A program made the translations under genes and the position numbers. This document shows positions 9,110-24,533 of a DNA stretch of 24,533 nucleotides, one piece after another. The DNA is from a virus, in IMG/VR virus record IMGVR_UViG_3300032287_004341, positions 1-24,533 of that record; one strand, 5' to 3'. Positions within the stretch are counted from its first letter, which is position 1; every line of letters begins with the position of its first letter. The notes beneath the pieces were generated by a model. That model had not been told where the DNA came from and ran no database searches. It was given only the letters and a program-made list of their open reading frames with translations.

Positions 9110-10294
9110 TTAGGCCTTATAAATAATAGTTGCCTCGTCTGTATTATCGACGTTACCATTAGCTACCTGACCGTGGAAGTTAATTTCCAAAGTAAGCAAG
9201 TCGTCTACACCAATTGTTGGAATCTCGACGTGCGCTGTAGGGAGGTCTAACTCTATACGTGGGCCAGTAGTGCCCCCAATGAATACAGACATATCAAAAG
9301 AGTTTCTAACTGTACTCGTATCGGCTAATTGGTCAATAAATAGCTCACTTGATGCTGTGGAAGTATCGTCGTAGTAACAAGTTAAACTACCACTTATGCT
9401 ACGAGTTCCAGTGATATTACCAATCGGCTGATTGACAACACCTAATTGTTCAGGTATCAAATAGCTGATATTGTTTTCTACAGTAAACGAACCACCTGTA
9501 AGAATTACACTGTAATCATCGGAAGTAGAGCTTCTTTGCAGAGTAACAGTTGATAGACGATTACGAATAAAGTTTGATGTATCCGCAACTCCAACTGTAA
9601 CAACAGAAGCCGTAGGTGAACCCGAAGTGGTCCAGCTTGGTGCGGTAGTAGTCGATAAGCTTGTAGCAAACCCGCTCCACTGAGCCGTAGCAATTCCTTC
9701 GATATCAAAATCAATAGTTACCGAATTTACAACAGCATCTGTTAGCTTAAAGTACTCTACGTTACTACCGCCGCCATCAACGAACGCAAACCAGATATTA
9801 TTACCAGCACCAAAATAAGAAGTATTTGACCCGCTAAAGTCAAAAGTATTTGCTCCTGCAACTTGTGTGCCGCTATTTATAGCTTGAAAAGGCGTCGGAG
9901 ACGCTAATGGCGAAATCATCGGGGATGGACTACCTCCAGTAGCGCTAGAGCCTTGAGCAATCGTACTGCCAAACTGTTTAGTAGTACTGTAATAGGCGTT
10001 TGCACCCATCAACATTGCCCAAAGTGCTTGTTCTGGAGCAACAACAGCGCCTCCACTACTTATTGGGCGTATATATGTGCTGCAACTCCACTCTACTGGA
10101 GCTAAAGAATCATTAAACAACAGTCTTGCTCTTCTAGAAGCTACTCCAGCTTCATTTACTGTTACTTCCGAAGAGTTCATGCTCTGAGAGAACGAAAAAC
10201 CAGCTAAAACAGGGATTTGAAATATTGAATTTGTGGGGGACCCGGAAGTCATCTCCACATATACTTTTGCGTTTCTTTGAAATTGTAATGCCAT
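9110..10294 (-). CDS. major tail tube protein
   Basis: I place the start at the ATG at 10292-10294, preceded by GGAG with an eight-base gap; the GTG further upstream at 10321 has no ribosome site. The 394-residue product is Ser/Thr/Gly-rich and beta-strand-like throughout. It opens with ALQFQRNAKVYVEM, has a SFSQSMNSSEVTVNEAG segment near residue 35, and a C-terminal region that reads like an extra immunoglobulin-type domain. It lies directly after the tail-terminator-like gene and before the chaperone and tape measure, the usual place of the tube subunit. The product would be one of the most abundant virion proteins. No lipid, membrane or catalytic motif is seen. Confidence 0.85.
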   Translation of the reverse strand: MALQFQRNAKVYVEMTSGSPTNSIFQIPVLAGFSFSQSMNSSEVTVNEAGVASRRARLLFNDSLAPVEWSCSTYIRPISSGGAVVAPEQALWAMLMGANAYYSTTKQFGSTIAQGSSATGGSPSPMISPLASPTPFQAINSGTQVAGANTFDFSGSNTSYFGAGNNIWFAFVDGGGSNVEYFKLTDAVVNSVTIDFDIEGIATAQWSGFATSLSTTTAPSWTTSGSPTASVVTVGVADTSNFIRNRLSTVTLQRSSTSDDYSVILTGGSFTVENNISYLIPEQLGVVNQPIGNITGTRSISGSLTCYYDDTSTASSELFIDQLADTSTVRNSFDMSVFIGGTTGPRIELDLPTAHVEIPTIGVDDLLTLEINFHGQVANGNVDNTDEATIIYKA

Positions 10295-17388: not shown

Positions 17389-18669
17389 TCAGAATGTTGG
17401 AGCAGCCACTTCAAAACTATAAAGAGCATAACGAATAGCGTCTGCCATGTGACTAGAGCTGTCATGTAGCGGCTTTTCTTTTATGAGGTTTGGGTTTGGA
17501 TCCCAGCGATACTGGTCAAGAGTTCTCAACACCTCTCCACAGGATTGGTCAACTATTAATTTATCATTTTCAACTAAAGATGCGACGTATCCAATGCCAT
17601 CAATTACCGACTTCTTCGCATTTTCAGTAGTAATATCGTAATTTTGTGCAAAATCATAGCGCGTTTGCGCAGCAGCCGAGTCAATAAAGCAGTAATCTAC
17701 GTCTCGACGCTGAATAATTTCAGAAATATGGCGAGCGTGTTCTTCTGTTGTACGCTCTGCGGCGTAGTATTCCTCTAAACAGTAGTATTTCTCACCGTCA
17801 TAAGCAAAAACACAAAATGCAGTTGGATCTTTAAAACCTATATCAATGCCAGCGATAATATCCATTCCTCGAATATCAAGACTCGATAGATCCGCTACGC
17901 ACTTTTCATAGTCAAAGTTCCATATCTGACCTTGGAAAATATTAAAGTCTGCTTCGTACTCTTGGGCGAATTCCGCTGAAGACATACTTCGACGAGCTTC
18001 ATCAATATCACTTGTTGCAGCGCGAGGATTATCTTTCCAGGTAGCCTTTATTGAAGCCCATTCGCTAAACTCATCAGTAAAGCCACGAGCGAAAAAACGG
18101 CTAAACCAATTATTACGGCCCCGAGGAGTGGAGATAAATAAAGCCTTACTACCCGGTTTGTCGAGTGTTGGCCGAATAGCCACGTTAAAAGCAGACTCAC
18201 CATCAGCGAGTGCAGCTTCGTCAAATAGAACAAAATCATAAGAACGTCCTACTACTGAATCAATTTGATTCACCGAGCCGAGTCGTATCGTTGATCCGTT
18301 CGCCATTTCAATTACACGATCTTTTGCGTTATCTTTCGACACTTCCAAATCAAAGTGTTTTATCAAATTTCTCTGCAAGTCAAAACTAATCTGGCTAAGA
18401 TTATAATTTGGAGATACAATTAGCACATGAGAGTTTGGAACAAGCGAAACGCACTGAGCAATAATGTTTCCAATGTAAGTTTTACCTTGGCGACGCGATA
18501 ACGCCCCTACAATAAAACGATACTTTGGGTTATTAATTGCATTAATTAGGGCGATCTGCGAAGGAATCGGGTCTATCTTTAACAAATCAAGATAACCCGT
18601 AATCGGCACCTTCAAAAAGTCGCCCTTTATCACTCGATCAGTAATTATATCTTTTCGACTTATTTCCAT
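17389..18669 (-). CDS. terminase large subunit
   Basis: The 426-residue protein has an ATPase with Walker A-like SRRQGKT at 58-64, Walker B VLFDEAA at 147-153 and motif III STP at 180-182. An RNase-H-like nuclease follows with acidic residues at GIDIGFKD (Asp276), FIDS (Asp330) and HMADA (Asp410). It cuts concatemeric DNA and drives it through the portal into the prohead. All key residues appear present. The start directly follows the previous stop (TAAATG) with only a weak ribosome site, so translation probably depends on coupling to the upstream Cys-rich gene. Confidence 0.96.
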   Translation of the reverse strand: MEISRKDIITDRVIKGDFLKVPITGYLDLLKIDPIPSQIALINAINNPKYRFIVGALSRRQGKTYIGNIIAQCVSLVPNSHVLIVSPNYNLSQISFDLQRNLIKHFDLEVSKDNAKDRVIEMANGSTIRLGSVNQIDSVVGRSYDFVLFDEAALADGESAFNVAIRPTLDKPGSKALFISTPRGRNNWFSRFFARGFTDEFSEWASIKATWKDNPRAATSDIDEARRSMSSAEFAQEYEADFNIFQGQIWNFDYEKCVADLSSLDIRGMDIIAGIDIGFKDPTAFCVFAYDGEKYYCLEEYYAAERTTEEHARHISEIIQRRDVDYCFIDSAAAQTRYDFAQNYDITTENAKKSVIDGIGYVASLVENDKLIVDQSCGEVLRTLDQYRWDPNPNLIKEKPLHDSSSHMADAIRYALYSFEVAAPTF

Positions 18670-19139: not shown

Positions 19140-19417
19140 ATTCCTCGCCTCACAAGTTCGCCAACTAAAAATAATATGGCTGAACCGCTTACAATCAAAA
19201 CGAGTTTATAAAGAGCCTCAATACGCATTTTTGACTCTTTCATCACTTCACGCGTATGTGCCTGAAAATCTCTTAACTCATTAAAAATTGTTTTCCATCT
19301 TTCCTCAACAACAGCTTCATGCCTATAAAAATCCTCTCTTAGCGAGCGGTGCTCTCTCCATAGATCGTCTAATTGTTGTTGAGCGCTCCAGTCACGATCC
19401 TGAGCTCTCCGTTCCAA
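19136..19417 (-). CDS. coiled-coil protein with one C-terminal membrane segment
   Basis: A TTG start at 19415-19417 with GGAG seven bases upstream gives a 93-residue protein. It has a long charged coiled coil (about residues 10-68: LDDLWREHRSLREDFYRHEA and on) followed by one membrane span (about 71-90, LYKLVLIVSGSAILFLVGEL) and a short basic end. The build resembles XhlA-type or other holin-accessory proteins. It is the only holin-like candidate in the window, but no endolysin is nearby, so the lysis role is uncertain. It overlaps the terminase-small candidate by 26 nt. Confidence 0.72.
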   Translation of the reverse strand: MERRAQDRDWSAQQQLDDLWREHRSLREDFYRHEAVVEERWKTIFNELRDFQAHTREVMKESKMRIEALYKLVLIVSGSAILFLVGELVRRGI

Positions 19418-19826
19418 GTAATTTCTCCATTAGTTTACCATAGTTTCCTTCGCCAAAGGGAGAATTTATCTGAACATTGTTCTGCTGTCGAATGGTATTT
19501 TTTGGCTCCTTGCGATGATCTTCGGCAACCTTGTGTGCAAGTGCTAGAATATCAACAAGATCCTTTGAAGAATACATACCCGCTTCTCGAGCTTCCTGTA
19601 GTTTGTTCTCGATAATTTCATCAAGCAATTCGGCGAGACGAAAACGATTACGGTAACCTTGGTCTAAATAGACCGAATTCATGTACTCTTTTACTTCCGA
19701 CTTCGCAAGTACTGAATGCACCACGTCGGGTGTAATGCCAAGACTAGAAGCGGCTTTGATAGCACATCCCATTGAGAGATAGGCATTTGCGACTTCGAGG
19801 TTTTCGGGAGCAAGTTTAACTAACAT
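19392..19826 (-). CDS. terminase small subunit (probable)
   Basis: The 144-residue protein has an N-terminal helix-turn-helix-like region (LEVANAYLSMGCAIKAASSL then TPDVVHSVLAKSEVKEYM, about residues 8-48). An acidic helix with KLQEAREAGMYSSKDLVDIL follows, then a Gln/Asn-rich linker and a short C-terminal helix. This matches the DNA-binding plus oligomerisation layout of small terminases, which recognise the packaging start and regulate the motor. It lies about 0.7 kb before the large terminase with only three short genes between. The start has GGAG about eight bases upstream. Confidence 0.75.
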   Translation of the reverse strand: MLVKLAPENLEVANAYLSMGCAIKAASSLGITPDVVHSVLAKSEVKEYMNSVYLDQGYRNRFRLAELLDEIIENKLQEAREAGMYSSKDLVDILALAHKVAEDHRKEPKNTIRQQNNVQINSPFGEGNYGKLMEKLLGTESSGS

Positions 19827-22934: not shown

Positions 22935-22979
22935 GGGGAAGTTCCTTCATGCTGTGCTCGAGTGTGGAGCAATGGGAAT

Positions 22980-23008
22980 AGTATAAACTGGAGTGAACTA
23001 AAAGTCAA
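22980..23008 (-). promoter_or_regulatory. sigma70-type late promoter, start of late block
   Basis: The -35 is TTGACT (23003-23008) and the -10 is TATACT (22980-22985), spacer 17, with an AAAAATTTTT tract just upstream that could act as an UP element. It should drive the whole minus-strand late block. Confidence 0.85.
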
Positions 23009-23138
23009 GGAAAAATTTTTGGGAGGGTTTGAGTTGTTTGTTAAGCGCCTTTTAGTTGGAAAAATACCCAAAGTTGCGCGTGAAGACGTGCGCCCGGGTG
23101 TGTGAATATTACAAGTCTCCGAACCGCCCCACCCCACC

Positions 23139-23154
23139 TGGCACGCCTTGTGCA
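23139..23154 (+). promoter_or_regulatory. sigma54-like -24/-12 site
   Basis: TGGCACG-CCTT-GTGCA: GG and GC are 12 bases apart as required and only one base differs from the TTGCA half. It could alternatively be part of a repeated operator box, since CCTGGCAC recurs three more times. Confidence 0.45.
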
Positions 23155-23165
23155 TGTTCAAAACC

Positions 23166-23172
23166 TGGCACG
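23166..23172 (+). repeat. AAAACCTGGCACG box without a -12 element
   Basis: The box matches the other copies, but 12 bases downstream of GG there is TC, not GC, so this one does not look like a working sigma54 promoter. It argues that the box may be a binding site in its own right. Confidence 0.5.
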
Positions 23173-23205
23173 AAAATTTCCGTGATGAAATGGTAATATG
23201 CACAC

Positions 23206-23234
23206 TTGCATTCGACCTAGGTCTAGCCCATACT
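23206..23234 (+). promoter_or_regulatory. sigma70-type early promoter with operator-like palindrome
   Basis: TTGCAT (23206-23211), 17-base spacer, CATACT (23229-23234). The spacer contains a perfect palindrome GACCTAGGTC at 23214-23223, the classic place for a repressor to block polymerase. Confidence 0.75.
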
Positions 23235-23260
23235 GTGCCCATCACATAGAGGAACACGAC

Positions 23261-23572
23261 ATGCCCAAGATCACTCAAGCCCAACAGTTTCTTTACATGC
23301 CTGCAATGGTAGAATACAACGCATGCTGCGCTGGATGCGGTAGCCCGCTCGATCTGGAATATGACCACGTTATTCCGCGCTGCAAAGGCGGCTCCGATCA
23401 TGTTTCCAACATTCAGATTCTTTGCGGCCATTGCAACAAGCACAAAGGTGTGCTGGCAAATTTCCCACGTGTTGCCCCCCGTAGCCCGGAGTATGACTGC
23501 CGGGCCATCATGGCAAACCGTAAGGAATTTGTTTACGGTTTGAGAATGTGGAAAAAGACCATTGTATCTTGA
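23261..23572 (+). CDS. HNH endonuclease
   Basis: The 103-residue protein starts at the ATG at 23261, with GAGGA seven bases upstream; longer readings start inside the promoter. C23-x2-C26, then DHVIPRCKGGSDHVSN (Asp35, His36, Asn50) and LCGHCNKHKG (C55, C58) form a textbook zinc-stabilised HNH nuclease domain. In small phage genomes such genes are homing nucleases, host-DNA cutters or packaging helpers. It lies far from the terminase and on the other strand, so a mobile or early host-takeover role is more likely than packaging. It is more G+C-rich than the late genes. Confidence 0.9.
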   Translation: MPKITQAQQFLYMPAMVEYNACCAGCGSPLDLEYDHVIPRCKGGSDHVSNIQILCGHCNKHKGVLANFPRVAPRSPEYDCRAIMANRKEFVYGLRMWKKTIVS

Positions 23573-23590
23573 TTCGATTCACCCTATACT
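23562..23590 (+). promoter_or_regulatory. sigma70-type early promoter
   Basis: TTGTAT (23562-23567), 17-base spacer, TATACT (23585-23590). Its -35 overlaps the last codons of the HNH gene. The 27-base leader to the next ATG is like that of the other plus-strand cassettes. Confidence 0.7.
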
Positions 23591-23617
23591 TCCCCCACCT
23601 AAACAGGAAACGCAAAC

Positions 23618-23839
23618 ATGAACGCAGAACAAATCCTCGACGTACTCAAGACCGGCGTATACTTCGTCACGTTCGCAAAAGACAATGGCGAAACCCGCAT
23701 GGTAAAAGGATCGGCTCCAGCAGATGCTTTCATTCGCACAGATGGTATCGTTCCGATTGTGGAACATGGCACGGGCGCATGGAAATCCTTTCGCGCATCT
23801 GCCATGCTCACCATCGTGTCTGAAAACCTTGTAGCCTAA
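23618..23839 (+). CDS. SH3-barrel / WYL_2-like (DUF2693-type) small protein
   Basis: The 73-residue protein has the pattern LKTGVYFVTFAKDNGETRMVKG, an acidic middle, and GAWKSFRASAMLTI at the end, which matches the small SH3-barrel proteins (DUF2693/WYL_2) common in phage early regions. Their job is unknown; WYL relatives bind ligands or nucleic acids and often regulate. AGGAAA lies seven bases before the ATG. The stop codon is part of the ribosome site of the next small frame, so both are probably co-translated. Confidence 0.8.
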   Translation: MNAEQILDVLKTGVYFVTFAKDNGETRMVKGSAPADAFIRTDGIVPIVEHGTGAWKSFRASAMLTIVSENLVA

Positions 23840-23849
23840 GGAATACACC

Positions 23850-23972
23850 ATGAACAATTGCAAATCGTATCGGCAATACCTTGCACTGGTACTCGGGCAG
23901 AAACAGCGGCAGCGGCCTGCACAATTCTGGGCCGTACCGTCCAGCAAAAAAGGCGGTAAAATTGCCGCTTGA
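23850..23972 (+). CDS. 40-residue small protein, coupled to preceding gene
   Basis: ATG at 23850 is preceded by AAGGA with a seven-base gap, and the site overlaps the previous stop, so the frame looks real despite its length. The product (MNNCKSYRQYLALVLGQKQR and on, ending KKGGKIAA) is basic and Gln/Arg-rich, with a short amphipathic helix. No family is recognised. Its stop overlaps the TTGATC hexamer of the 71-bp repeat. Confidence 0.55.
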   Translation: MNNCKSYRQYLALVLGQKQRQRPAQFWAVPSSKKGGKIAA

Positions 23973-24035
23973 TCTTAGGCCGGGCCGTATGTCATAATGG
24001 TGGCAACGGCCAGGGCCGCGCCGAAAACCTGGCAC
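23965..24035 (+). repeat. 71-bp promoter/hairpin/box repeat, copy 1
   Basis: It aligns without gaps to 24463-24533 with about 51 of 71 positions equal. It contains CCGCTTGA, TATGTCATA, a CGGC-loop-GCCG hairpin and the invariant block GCCGCGCCGAAAACCTGG. Identity is concentrated in these blocks while the bases between them vary freely, which points to selection on a regulatory element. Confidence 0.8.
23969..23998 (+). promoter_or_regulatory. sigma70-like promoter within 71-bp repeat, copy 1
   Basis: TTGATC (23969-23974), 18-base spacer, CATAAT (23993-23998). The same layout is kept in copy 2. Confidence 0.55.
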
Positions 24036-24045
24036 GCTTATTGCA
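24030..24045 (+). promoter_or_regulatory. perfect sigma54 consensus site
   Basis: TGGCACG-CTTA-TTGCA matches the -24/-12 consensus at every conserved base, with GG and GC 12 bases apart. It begins in the end of the 71-bp repeat. A near-palindrome GACCTAGGGC follows at 24052-24061. No activator gene or upstream enhancer is visible. Confidence 0.55.
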
Positions 24046-24156
24046 TAGGTTGACCTAGGGCCGAGATGCGAATGATTCCTGTTTAGGCCTGGGTCGCGCC
24101 GATTTTACCACAATAGCTTACGGGCTGTCAACACAAAAGAATGTGAGATATTACCA

Positions 24157-24185
24157 TTGCAATCCTAGTCTGGCCGCTCTATACT
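24157..24185 (+). promoter_or_regulatory. sigma70-type early promoter
   Basis: TTGCAA (24157-24162), 17-base spacer, TATACT (24180-24185). The spacer keeps a CCTAGTCTGGCC string resembling the CCTAGGTCTAGCC of the promoter at 23206. Confidence 0.78.
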
Positions 24186-24212
24186 GCGCTCACCAACTAA
24201 GGAAACAGAGAC

Positions 24213-24410
24213 ATGACCTATATCGAAATCGTTCTGAACAAACTGCCGAAAGGCTTCCCCACTACTGGCCGTTGCGAGGATCTGCTTCGCAACGCATGGG
24301 AAATCAGCATTGCCGAATTCGGCAAAAAACAGACCACCTGGCTCTTTCATGTAAACGAAGATTTTCAGGATGAATTGGTTACCGCATACGCAGAAGCCGC
24401 GAAGGTTTGA
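24213..24410 (+). CDS. small acidic protein, unknown
   Basis: This 65-residue protein has AAGGAA eight bases before the ATG and its own promoter, followed by a strong terminator, so it forms a complete single-gene unit. It starts TYIEIVLNKLPKGFPTTGRC, has a helix (EDLLRNAWEISIAEFGK) and an acidic C-terminal helix (NEDFQDELVTAYAEAAK). There is no recognisable domain. Compact phage proteins of this kind are often inhibitors of host functions, but nothing in the sequence points to a target. Confidence 0.78.
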   Translation: MTYIEIVLNKLPKGFPTTGRCEDLLRNAWEISIAEFGKKQTTWLFHVNEDFQDELVTAYAEAAKV

Positions 24411-24428
24411 AGGAACCATGCCAGGAAG

Positions 24429-24452
24429 GCCTGCTGAAAAGCGGGCTTTTTT
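24429..24452 (+). terminator. rho-independent terminator
   Basis: GCCTGCT pairs with AGCGGGC (one G-T wobble) over a GAAA loop, followed by TTTTTT. It closes the single-gene unit at 24213-24410. Confidence 0.88.
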
Positions 24453-24462
24453 GTGCATATTA

Positions 24463-24533
24463 CCGCTTGACAGACCGCCAAGCGATATGTCATACTATAG
24501 CTAACGGCTGAAGCCGCGCCGAAAACCTGGCAC
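24463..24533 (+). repeat. 71-bp promoter/hairpin/box repeat, copy 2 (window edge)
   Basis: This is the second copy of the element at 23965-24035, ending exactly at the window edge within the TGGCAC box. The hairpin here is CGGC-TGAA-GCCG against CGGC-CAGG-GCCG in copy 1: the stem is kept and the loop changes. Whether it continues into a TTGCA half cannot be seen. Confidence 0.8.
24467..24496 (+). promoter_or_regulatory. sigma70-like promoter within 71-bp repeat, copy 2
   Basis: TTGACA (24467-24472), 18-base spacer, CATACT (24491-24496). It stands directly after the terminator at 24429-24452, as expected for the start of the next unit outside the window. Confidence 0.62.

Follow-up and report, generated by a model that had tools for sequence, protein, structure and literature searches.

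Predicted binding sites for host RpoN RNA polymerase in the probable pre-early DNA of a T5-related phage and in arrays across viral contigs

The window analyzed here, a stretch of 24,533 nucleotides, is an IMG/VR fragment of a phage that, judged by its predicted proteins, is distantly related to T5; we make no claim of family membership itself. Toward its end lies a small group of boxes of the sigma54 (RpoN) -24/-12 type, and boxes of the same kind form arrays in other viral contigs. The enforced spacing, the clustering, and the conserved position of the boxes make it very probable that the window boxes and the arrays are genuine binding sites of the host RpoN RNA polymerase (E-sigma54). RpoN binding would be the simplest reading of a spacing that is enforced while the neighbors vary.

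The first-pass annotation had described a perfect match to TGGCACG-N4-TTGCA (site B) and a match with one difference (site A), both with 12 bases between GG and GC, and re-reading of the letters confirmed this description (Table 1). Site B agrees at 12 of 12 specified bases and site A at 11 of 12, the mismatch being the first T of TTGCA, and the GG-to-GC start distance is 12 bases in both alike. It is likewise correct that a third box (site A') consists of the -24 half alone and that a fourth, TGGCAC, is cut by the contig end; the latter lies within a copy of a 75-nt repeat. All of the window sites are oriented the same way as the small open reading frames (ORFs), and they are intergenic, with the -24/-12 elements aimed at those ORFs. 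Between positions 22936 and 24533, the 12-base pattern gave one perfect site (first-order shuffle mean of 0.0013, reached in 4 of 3,000 shuffles) and two sites at up to one mismatch (mean of 0.033, reached in 3 of 3,000). Further matches, for which the annotation had suggested a wider search, include perfect sites in the sister contig and in other phages; the remaining 22,935 window bases have none at up to one mismatch and three at two mismatches with the 12-base pattern. A looser 11-base pattern with two mismatches gave 16 matches over the whole window against a shuffle mean of 10.5, with 5 of 100 shuffles reaching 16; the one-mismatch matches outside the site region were at 9857 and 9956 on the minus strand.

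TABLE 1 Coordinates of the boxes and of features in the window, and of a small protein encoded beside arrays elsewhere
Feature	Record	Position	Strand	Remark
Terminase large subunit	window	17389-18669	-	Used for placement
Small terminase homologue	window	19392-19826	-	Vibrio phage VspSw_1, 40% over 141 aa
Operator-like element, copy TGTGAATATTACA	window	23101-23113	+	Recurring TGTGAATATTACC, up to one mismatch
Site A	window	23139-23154	+	TGGCACGCCTTGTGCA
Site A'	window	23166-23181	+	TGGCACGAAAATTTCC
Operator-like element, second copy	window	23192-23204	-	TGTGCATATTACC on listed strand
HNH endonuclease ORF	window	23261-23572	+	PHROGs; scanned ORF was the mechanical one from 23198, ATG read from the letters
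73-aa ORF, without assigned function	window	23618-23839	+	Sister copy 85% identical
75-nt repeat	window	23961-24035	+	Holds a sigma70-like promoter and the -24 half of site B
Sigma70-like promoter TTGATC-18-CATAAT	window	23969-23998	+	9/12; consensus match only
Site B	window	24030-24045	+	TGGCACGCTTATTGCA
Fur-box-like palindrome, degenerate copy	window	24067-24081	+	By eye; fails two-mismatch scan
Sigma70-like promoter TTGACA-18-TAAAAT	window	24102-24131	-	11/12; consensus match; in sister by eye
Sigma70-like promoter TTGCAA-17-TATACT	window	24157-24185	+	9/12; consensus match; ahead of 65-aa ORF
65-aa ORF, without assigned function	window	24213-24410	+	
Operator-like element TGTGAATATTACC, third copy	window	24452-24464		
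75-nt repeat, second copy	window	24459-24533	+	72% identical to 23961-24035; sigma70-like promoter at 24467-24496
Fourth box, TGGCAC	window	24528-24533	+	Cut by contig end
Small array-side protein	L005	4265-4663		
Small array-side protein	L032	392-784		
Small array-side protein	L023	3413-3829		
Small array-side protein	L052	4709-5095		
Small array-side protein	L048	5499-5888		
Small array-side protein	L057	222-626		

The surroundings of the sites hold other regulatory-looking elements. The two facing sigma70-like promoters that flank site B are about 100 bp apart, and the sister has the same arrangement by eye. A further sigma70-like promoter stands between site B and the 65-aa ORF; the scan listed none in the stretch from site A to the HNH ORF. 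The operator-like element TGTGAATATTACC, at up to one mismatch, was found three times each in the window, the sister (G001), and the relative L407, once in the relative L375, and not at all in 1.04 Mb of control loci. The window copies and those elsewhere (G001 at 28877; L407 at 1008, 3171, and 3358) adjoin sites and sigma70-like promoters. A looser DnaA-type box occurs at 23547 in the window and at 28952 in the sister, where it is beside site A'. Three Rfam matches were all under the gathering score, and comparison of the DNA of the region with named phages gave a single match of 31 bases. Searching IMG/VR with the 73-aa ORF returned no relatives, a result of little weight since the same search overlooked the sister copy.

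Placement of the region came from comparison with T5-like relatives. The window terminase shares 98.8% identity with its counterpart in the sister, a 106-kb contig, and the best 12 named matches among those listed were Vibrio phages, at 49%, of which four that were looked up belong to the Demerecviridae. A dmp-like ORF, dmp being a T5 pre-early gene, is present in the sister (34795 to 35247), where PHROGs called it a polynucleotide kinase, and also in L387, L394, L407, and L413. No match to A1 or A2 was obtained at an E value of up to 1e-3 in G001, the window, or 80 relatives; an ORF at 37214 in G001 gave a weak "DNA binding protein" match and is not similar to the A2 of VspSw_1. Window and sister are metagenomic contigs that carry no end information. 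On this comparison, the plus-strand site region is most likely pre-early, or first-entering, DNA. The terminase, the dmp-like ORF, and the pre-early site clusters of Vibrio phages described below thus support the earlier designation of the region as early.

The sites are kept in the sister, which has perfect sites at 28915, 29980, and 31040 and a fourth at 36872 on the minus strand if TGGCAT is allowed. The counterpart of site A is the perfect site at 28915, site B is identical to the site at 29980, and the counterpart of site A', at 28942, is likewise a -24 half alone. At 29980, 31040, and 36872, a Fur-box-like palindrome follows 37, 38, and 37 bases after the site, with CTAGG in between. The sister thus has three copies of a composite of site, CTAGG, and palindrome, at its sites B, C, and E, and this composite resembles a promoter that carries its own operator. 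Five such palindromes at up to one mismatch (30017, 31078, 32087, 33917, and 36836) span 30.0 to 36.9 kb of the sister, and there are none in the 1.04 Mb of control loci. Similar palindromes were also seen in PG07 (109664 to 110106) and T5 (9658), in or near the pre-early regions of these T5-like phages. The relative L407, with 67% terminase identity, has three sites on both strands, flanked by two TGTGAATATTACC copies as in the window. It was the only one of 19 T5-related records with a cluster, the other 18 being fragments or unplaceable. No cluster was seen in 20 other relatives with sufficient upstream DNA, and because the HNH and 73-aa genes were also absent from view there, the site region could not be placed in those 20.

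Sites of this type are not confined to the T5-related contigs. Perfect tandem pairs occurred in 104 stretches among 2.9 million viral contigs, forming 65 clusters by shared 25-mers, whereas a control pattern with one extra spacer base occurred in a single stretch. Bacterial and archaeal genomes (257 Gb) held six tandem stretches. With the viral collection put at about 37 Gb, a rough figure from 80 control contigs, about 0.008 pairs would be expected by chance, and the density is roughly a hundred-fold above that of the genomes. One of the six genome hits, a Fibrobacter contig (L126, 90 to 318), has five tandem exact sites near ORFs that by eye resemble a tryptophan operon. Near the 65 representatives, further TGGCAC/TTGC pairs had a spacer of exactly 5 nt in 74 of 84 cases, and the variation among array sites (C/T, G/A, A/T) falls at positions expected for sigma54. 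A sample of single sites, comprising 113 of 119 N4 stretches with six obtained earlier left out, pointed the same way: among the matches listed, a second site at up to one mismatch lay within 200 bp in 35 of 113, against 0 of 120 for an N5 control, and 45 of 113 lay inside ORFs of at least 100 aa, against 108 of 120 controls.

Many of the arrays are dense. When two mismatches were allowed and the 400 bp around each pair were counted, at least three sites were present at 80 of the 104 loci (49 of the 65 representatives) and at least ten at 12 loci (5 representatives), with a maximum of 15; sites lay on both strands in 44 of 104 arrays and 20 of 65 representatives, some sites being 18 bp apart. 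L084 has 15 sites on a single strand in 514 bp, and L037 has ten perfect sites on both strands. Besides its perfect sites, L037 shows repeated palindrome-like stretches around ACAAGCCGTTGT and GGTTAAAGCTGACCA between 650 and 950. There were 104 tandem pairs against 19 convergent ones, a ratio expected to be near 2:1 if orientation were random, which is at odds with a fully random orientation of sites. With respect to genes, the arrays ran six forward and six backward, or four and seven, a neutrality at odds with arrays as clean gene-facing promoters, and single sites ran 13 forward against 5, or 13 against 8, which is not significant. Arrays lay inside ORFs in 8 of 65 cases with a 120-aa threshold and in 21 of 65 with an 80-aa threshold; those of L024 and L031, inside ORFs of 1,671 and 523 aa, may be protein repeats.

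The carriers are varied phages, since the neighboring terminase, portal, primase, and helicase families differ. The distance to terminase was searched in 47 of the 65 representative contigs, leaving aside 18 whose length was small or had not been checked. At an E value of up to 0.001 for either of two families, a terminase was found in 23 of these 47, four of the 23 (G021, G024, G036, and G041) matching only below the cutoff. The array lay within 3.5 kb of the terminase in 13 of the 23 if the contigs are circular (random mean of 4.6, p = 0.00015) and in 12 if they are linear (p = 0.0003), and farther away in 10 or 11. In comparisons of carriers with named phages, L023 has a 206-base DNA match to Pseudoalteromonas phages, the L073 terminase matched T7-like phages, among them those of Rhizobium and Pelagibacter, at up to 51% among the matches listed, the L083 helicase and L071 primase had distant matches only, L069 and L084 had no DNA match, and the L052 small protein and the L090 portal had no protein match. 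No site at up to one mismatch was present in the seven named phages reached through array loci (two of Pseudoalteromonas, two of Rhizobium, and one each of Marinobacter, Caulobacter, and Pseudomonas). The small protein, of 129 to 139 aa, is encoded beside the arrays of six clusters (Table 1), at 58 to 71% identity to that of L005, which has an AT-hook match; two that were inspected singly had no PHROGs match.

Motifs for other host proteins were scanned around the 65 arrays, in 52 kb near them against 452 kb far from them, with motif strings for DnaA, Fur, LexA, CRP, FNR, IHF, and others. DnaA boxes numbered 18 near and 2 far and were confined to 5 of 65 loci. IHF-type motifs, IHF being a common assistant of sigma54 promoters, numbered 10 near and 33 far (shuffled mean of 3.4) and were found at 9 of 65 loci. 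There were 5 LexA-type motifs near and 3 far, 3 NtrC-type near and 1 far, and 2 exact Fur-type boxes near and 5 far; CRP, FNR, TyrR, PurR, PhoB, and NrdR motifs were absent from the 52 kb near arrays. Over entire array loci, exact Fur-type boxes numbered 11 in 0.85 Mb, a count that includes copies in related loci, against 0 in 1.04 Mb of control loci. The first-pass annotation had proposed a search for a gene encoding a bacterial enhancer-binding protein (bEBP) type of activator, and in that search the domain was over the cutoff in none of 50 records, window and sister included; G033 gave a single weak match under the cutoff. The idea that array phages encode a sigma54 DNA-binding domain was rejected, with 0 of 50 records over the cutoff. 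The one record with such a match under the cutoff, G035, had it twice in a 315-aa ORF, which to our reading resembles an IS3-type transposase.

Named T5-like phages were scanned with TGGCAYGNNNNTTGCW, one mismatch allowed, with the reversed pattern as a control. In nine Vibrio records, 57 of the 65 matches fell within the pre-early cluster or a terminal copy of it, and the reversed control gave 19 in the same nine; the four matches counted in Javier and in Chester are two sites present at both genome ends. These nine are not nine independent cases, because they form a few related groups. By annotation, A1 (or a DNA transfer protein), a DNA-binding or A2 gene, and dmp adjoin the cluster in VspSw_1, ValS_X1, pVp-1, and Javier, and 234P1 has a putative DNA-binding gene and an A1-sized gene; in 70E37.1, 234P6, PG07, and Chester, the pre-early assignment rests on similar sites and order. 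Two positions recur, a noncoding stretch beside DnaA boxes and the divergent region ahead of A2, and strict DnaA boxes adjoin sites in VspSw_1, PG07, and pVp-1. Several TGGCATGATTATTGCY (TGGCAT-type) matches in Vibrio phages overlap opposite-strand start codons and may be translation-start sequence instead. Two Aeromonas records gave 5 and 3 matches against 3 and 3 controls; AhSzq-1 has three exact matches at 107.0 to 108.7 kb, near A2. Five enterobacterial records (T5, EPS7, Sugarland, Slocum, and SP3) were not enriched, with 7 matches, one of them in the terminal repeat of Sugarland, against 12 controls.

The injection stop signal of T5 is described as rich in repeats, palindromes, and DnaA boxes, and its proposed role is to engage components of the host that prevent further entry (PMC13250531). 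The sites of the Vibrio T5-like phages adjoin A1, A2, and dmp, a likeness to the first-step-transfer region of T5, and one of them stands beside DnaA boxes in a noncoding stretch that is equivalent to the stop signal by gene order. T5 itself, however, has no sigma54 site at up to one mismatch in its first 10.5 kb. The window has repeats and palindromes and, unlike the stop signal, no TTATCCACA box, and it is a fragment without A1.

What the sites are, and what they would be for, admits several explanations. Because the whole window is barely enriched at two mismatches, which speaks for chance, the claim for the window rests on its close matches; chance is nonetheless a very improbable source of these, as shuffles of 22936 to 24533 rarely reach the observed counts and the sites are kept in the sister and in L407. 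A view weighed in the first-pass annotation was that the repeat is an operator and its -12 halves accidental. The repeats do sit in regulatory regions adjoining other operator-like repeats, but an operator for a phage-encoded protein that resembles a sigma54 site by coincidence seems unlikely when 65 array clusters beside different terminase, portal, and primase types agree in these positions and this spacing, when the variation follows the sigma54 pattern, and when none of the 50 records encodes a sigma54 DNA-binding domain over the cutoff. Spacing supports sigma54-type sites on this point (104 stretches against 1 with an extra base, and 74 of 84 pairs at 5 nt), together with the weaker window site being perfect in the sister.

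If these are RpoN sites, they may be docking points or promoters. As sigma54-dependent early promoters, they would be used by host E-sigma54 with a host activator, transcription would start 12 bases below each GC, and expression would be tied to the state of the host. We regard this as a serious contender. The intergenic -24/-12 elements point at ORFs, and the HNH ORF has no listed sigma70-like promoter between it and site A, whereas one is present between site B and its ORF. No activator domain was over the cutoff in the 50 records, but activators of the host could serve. The dense arrays on both strands and their neutral orientation to genes speak against promoters, and all classes of T5 genes are reported to be transcribed with sigma70 (PMC7472727); the same-strand bias of pairs, the slight and not significant forward lean of single sites, the denser IHF-type motifs, and the operator-like palindrome right below the expected start in the sister speak for them and count equally against docking. 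The first-pass proposal of sigma54-dependent early expression therefore stands as to sigma54-type sites in an early region and is weakened as to dependence by the sigma70-like promoter at 24157 to 24185, the missing bEBP domain, and the neutral arrays. On the absence of an activator domain, the dense two-strand arrays, the neutral orientation, and the DnaA boxes beside a few arrays, we lean slightly, and tentatively, toward docking of host E-sigma54 as the main role of the sites. Host E-sigma54 would bind and remain as a closed complex, which we propose because no phage activator was found, and the site would therefore be mainly a docking point. The bound polymerase could block or modulate sigma70-like promoters nearby, delay the DNA as it enters, or be kept away from host genes, although the few sites on one freshly entered genome cannot hold many RpoN molecules.

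Parts of this proposal have parallels. The consensus of bacterial sigma54 promoters is given as TGGCAC-N5-7-TTGCT (PMC12316311). The phage sites share the consensus and spacing of such RpoN -24/-12 promoters. As predicted sites, they differ in that they belong to phage genomes, are often grouped, with some groups on both strands, and come without a phage activator. RpoN is reported to bind DNA even when core polymerase is absent, although ten-fold less well; the RpoN* roadblock peptide, which acts at -24 sites, lowers transcription and is proposed to block other sigma factors (PMC5626770). The likeness lies in a protein on -24 sites; the peptide is engineered and not a phage feature. Phage phi1422 is reported to encode a sigma54-type protein (PMC3391216), as is Pectobacterium phage Q19, whose gp2 was so assigned by a weak HHpred match (PMC7693777). 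These share with our phages a link to sigma54 control, but theirs are genes, whereas ours have sites, with no gene of that kind over the cutoff. In the open-licence literature, we found no title or abstract opening on RpoN-site arrays in phage genomes.

More speculatively, many phages may carry islands of predicted sites for host proteins, chiefly RpoN; some islands would also include DnaA and Fur-type boxes. The islands would often lie near terminase genes and, in T5-like phages, in the first-entering DNA. Instead of serving transcription, they might dock, stall, or sequester host factors as infection begins, and the window would be a small example. If the sites bind RpoN, these phages engage a host sigma factor that is seldom considered in infection, and the arrays offer a clear case, open to testing, in which viral DNA would serve as a landing pad or sponge. 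Such binding would also be relevant to the long-standing question of what halts T5-type DNA after the first entry step. If the sites are promoters instead, the early expression of these phages would be tied to host activators. Clusters of sites in phage DNA suggest a little-noticed way to dock or divert host proteins.
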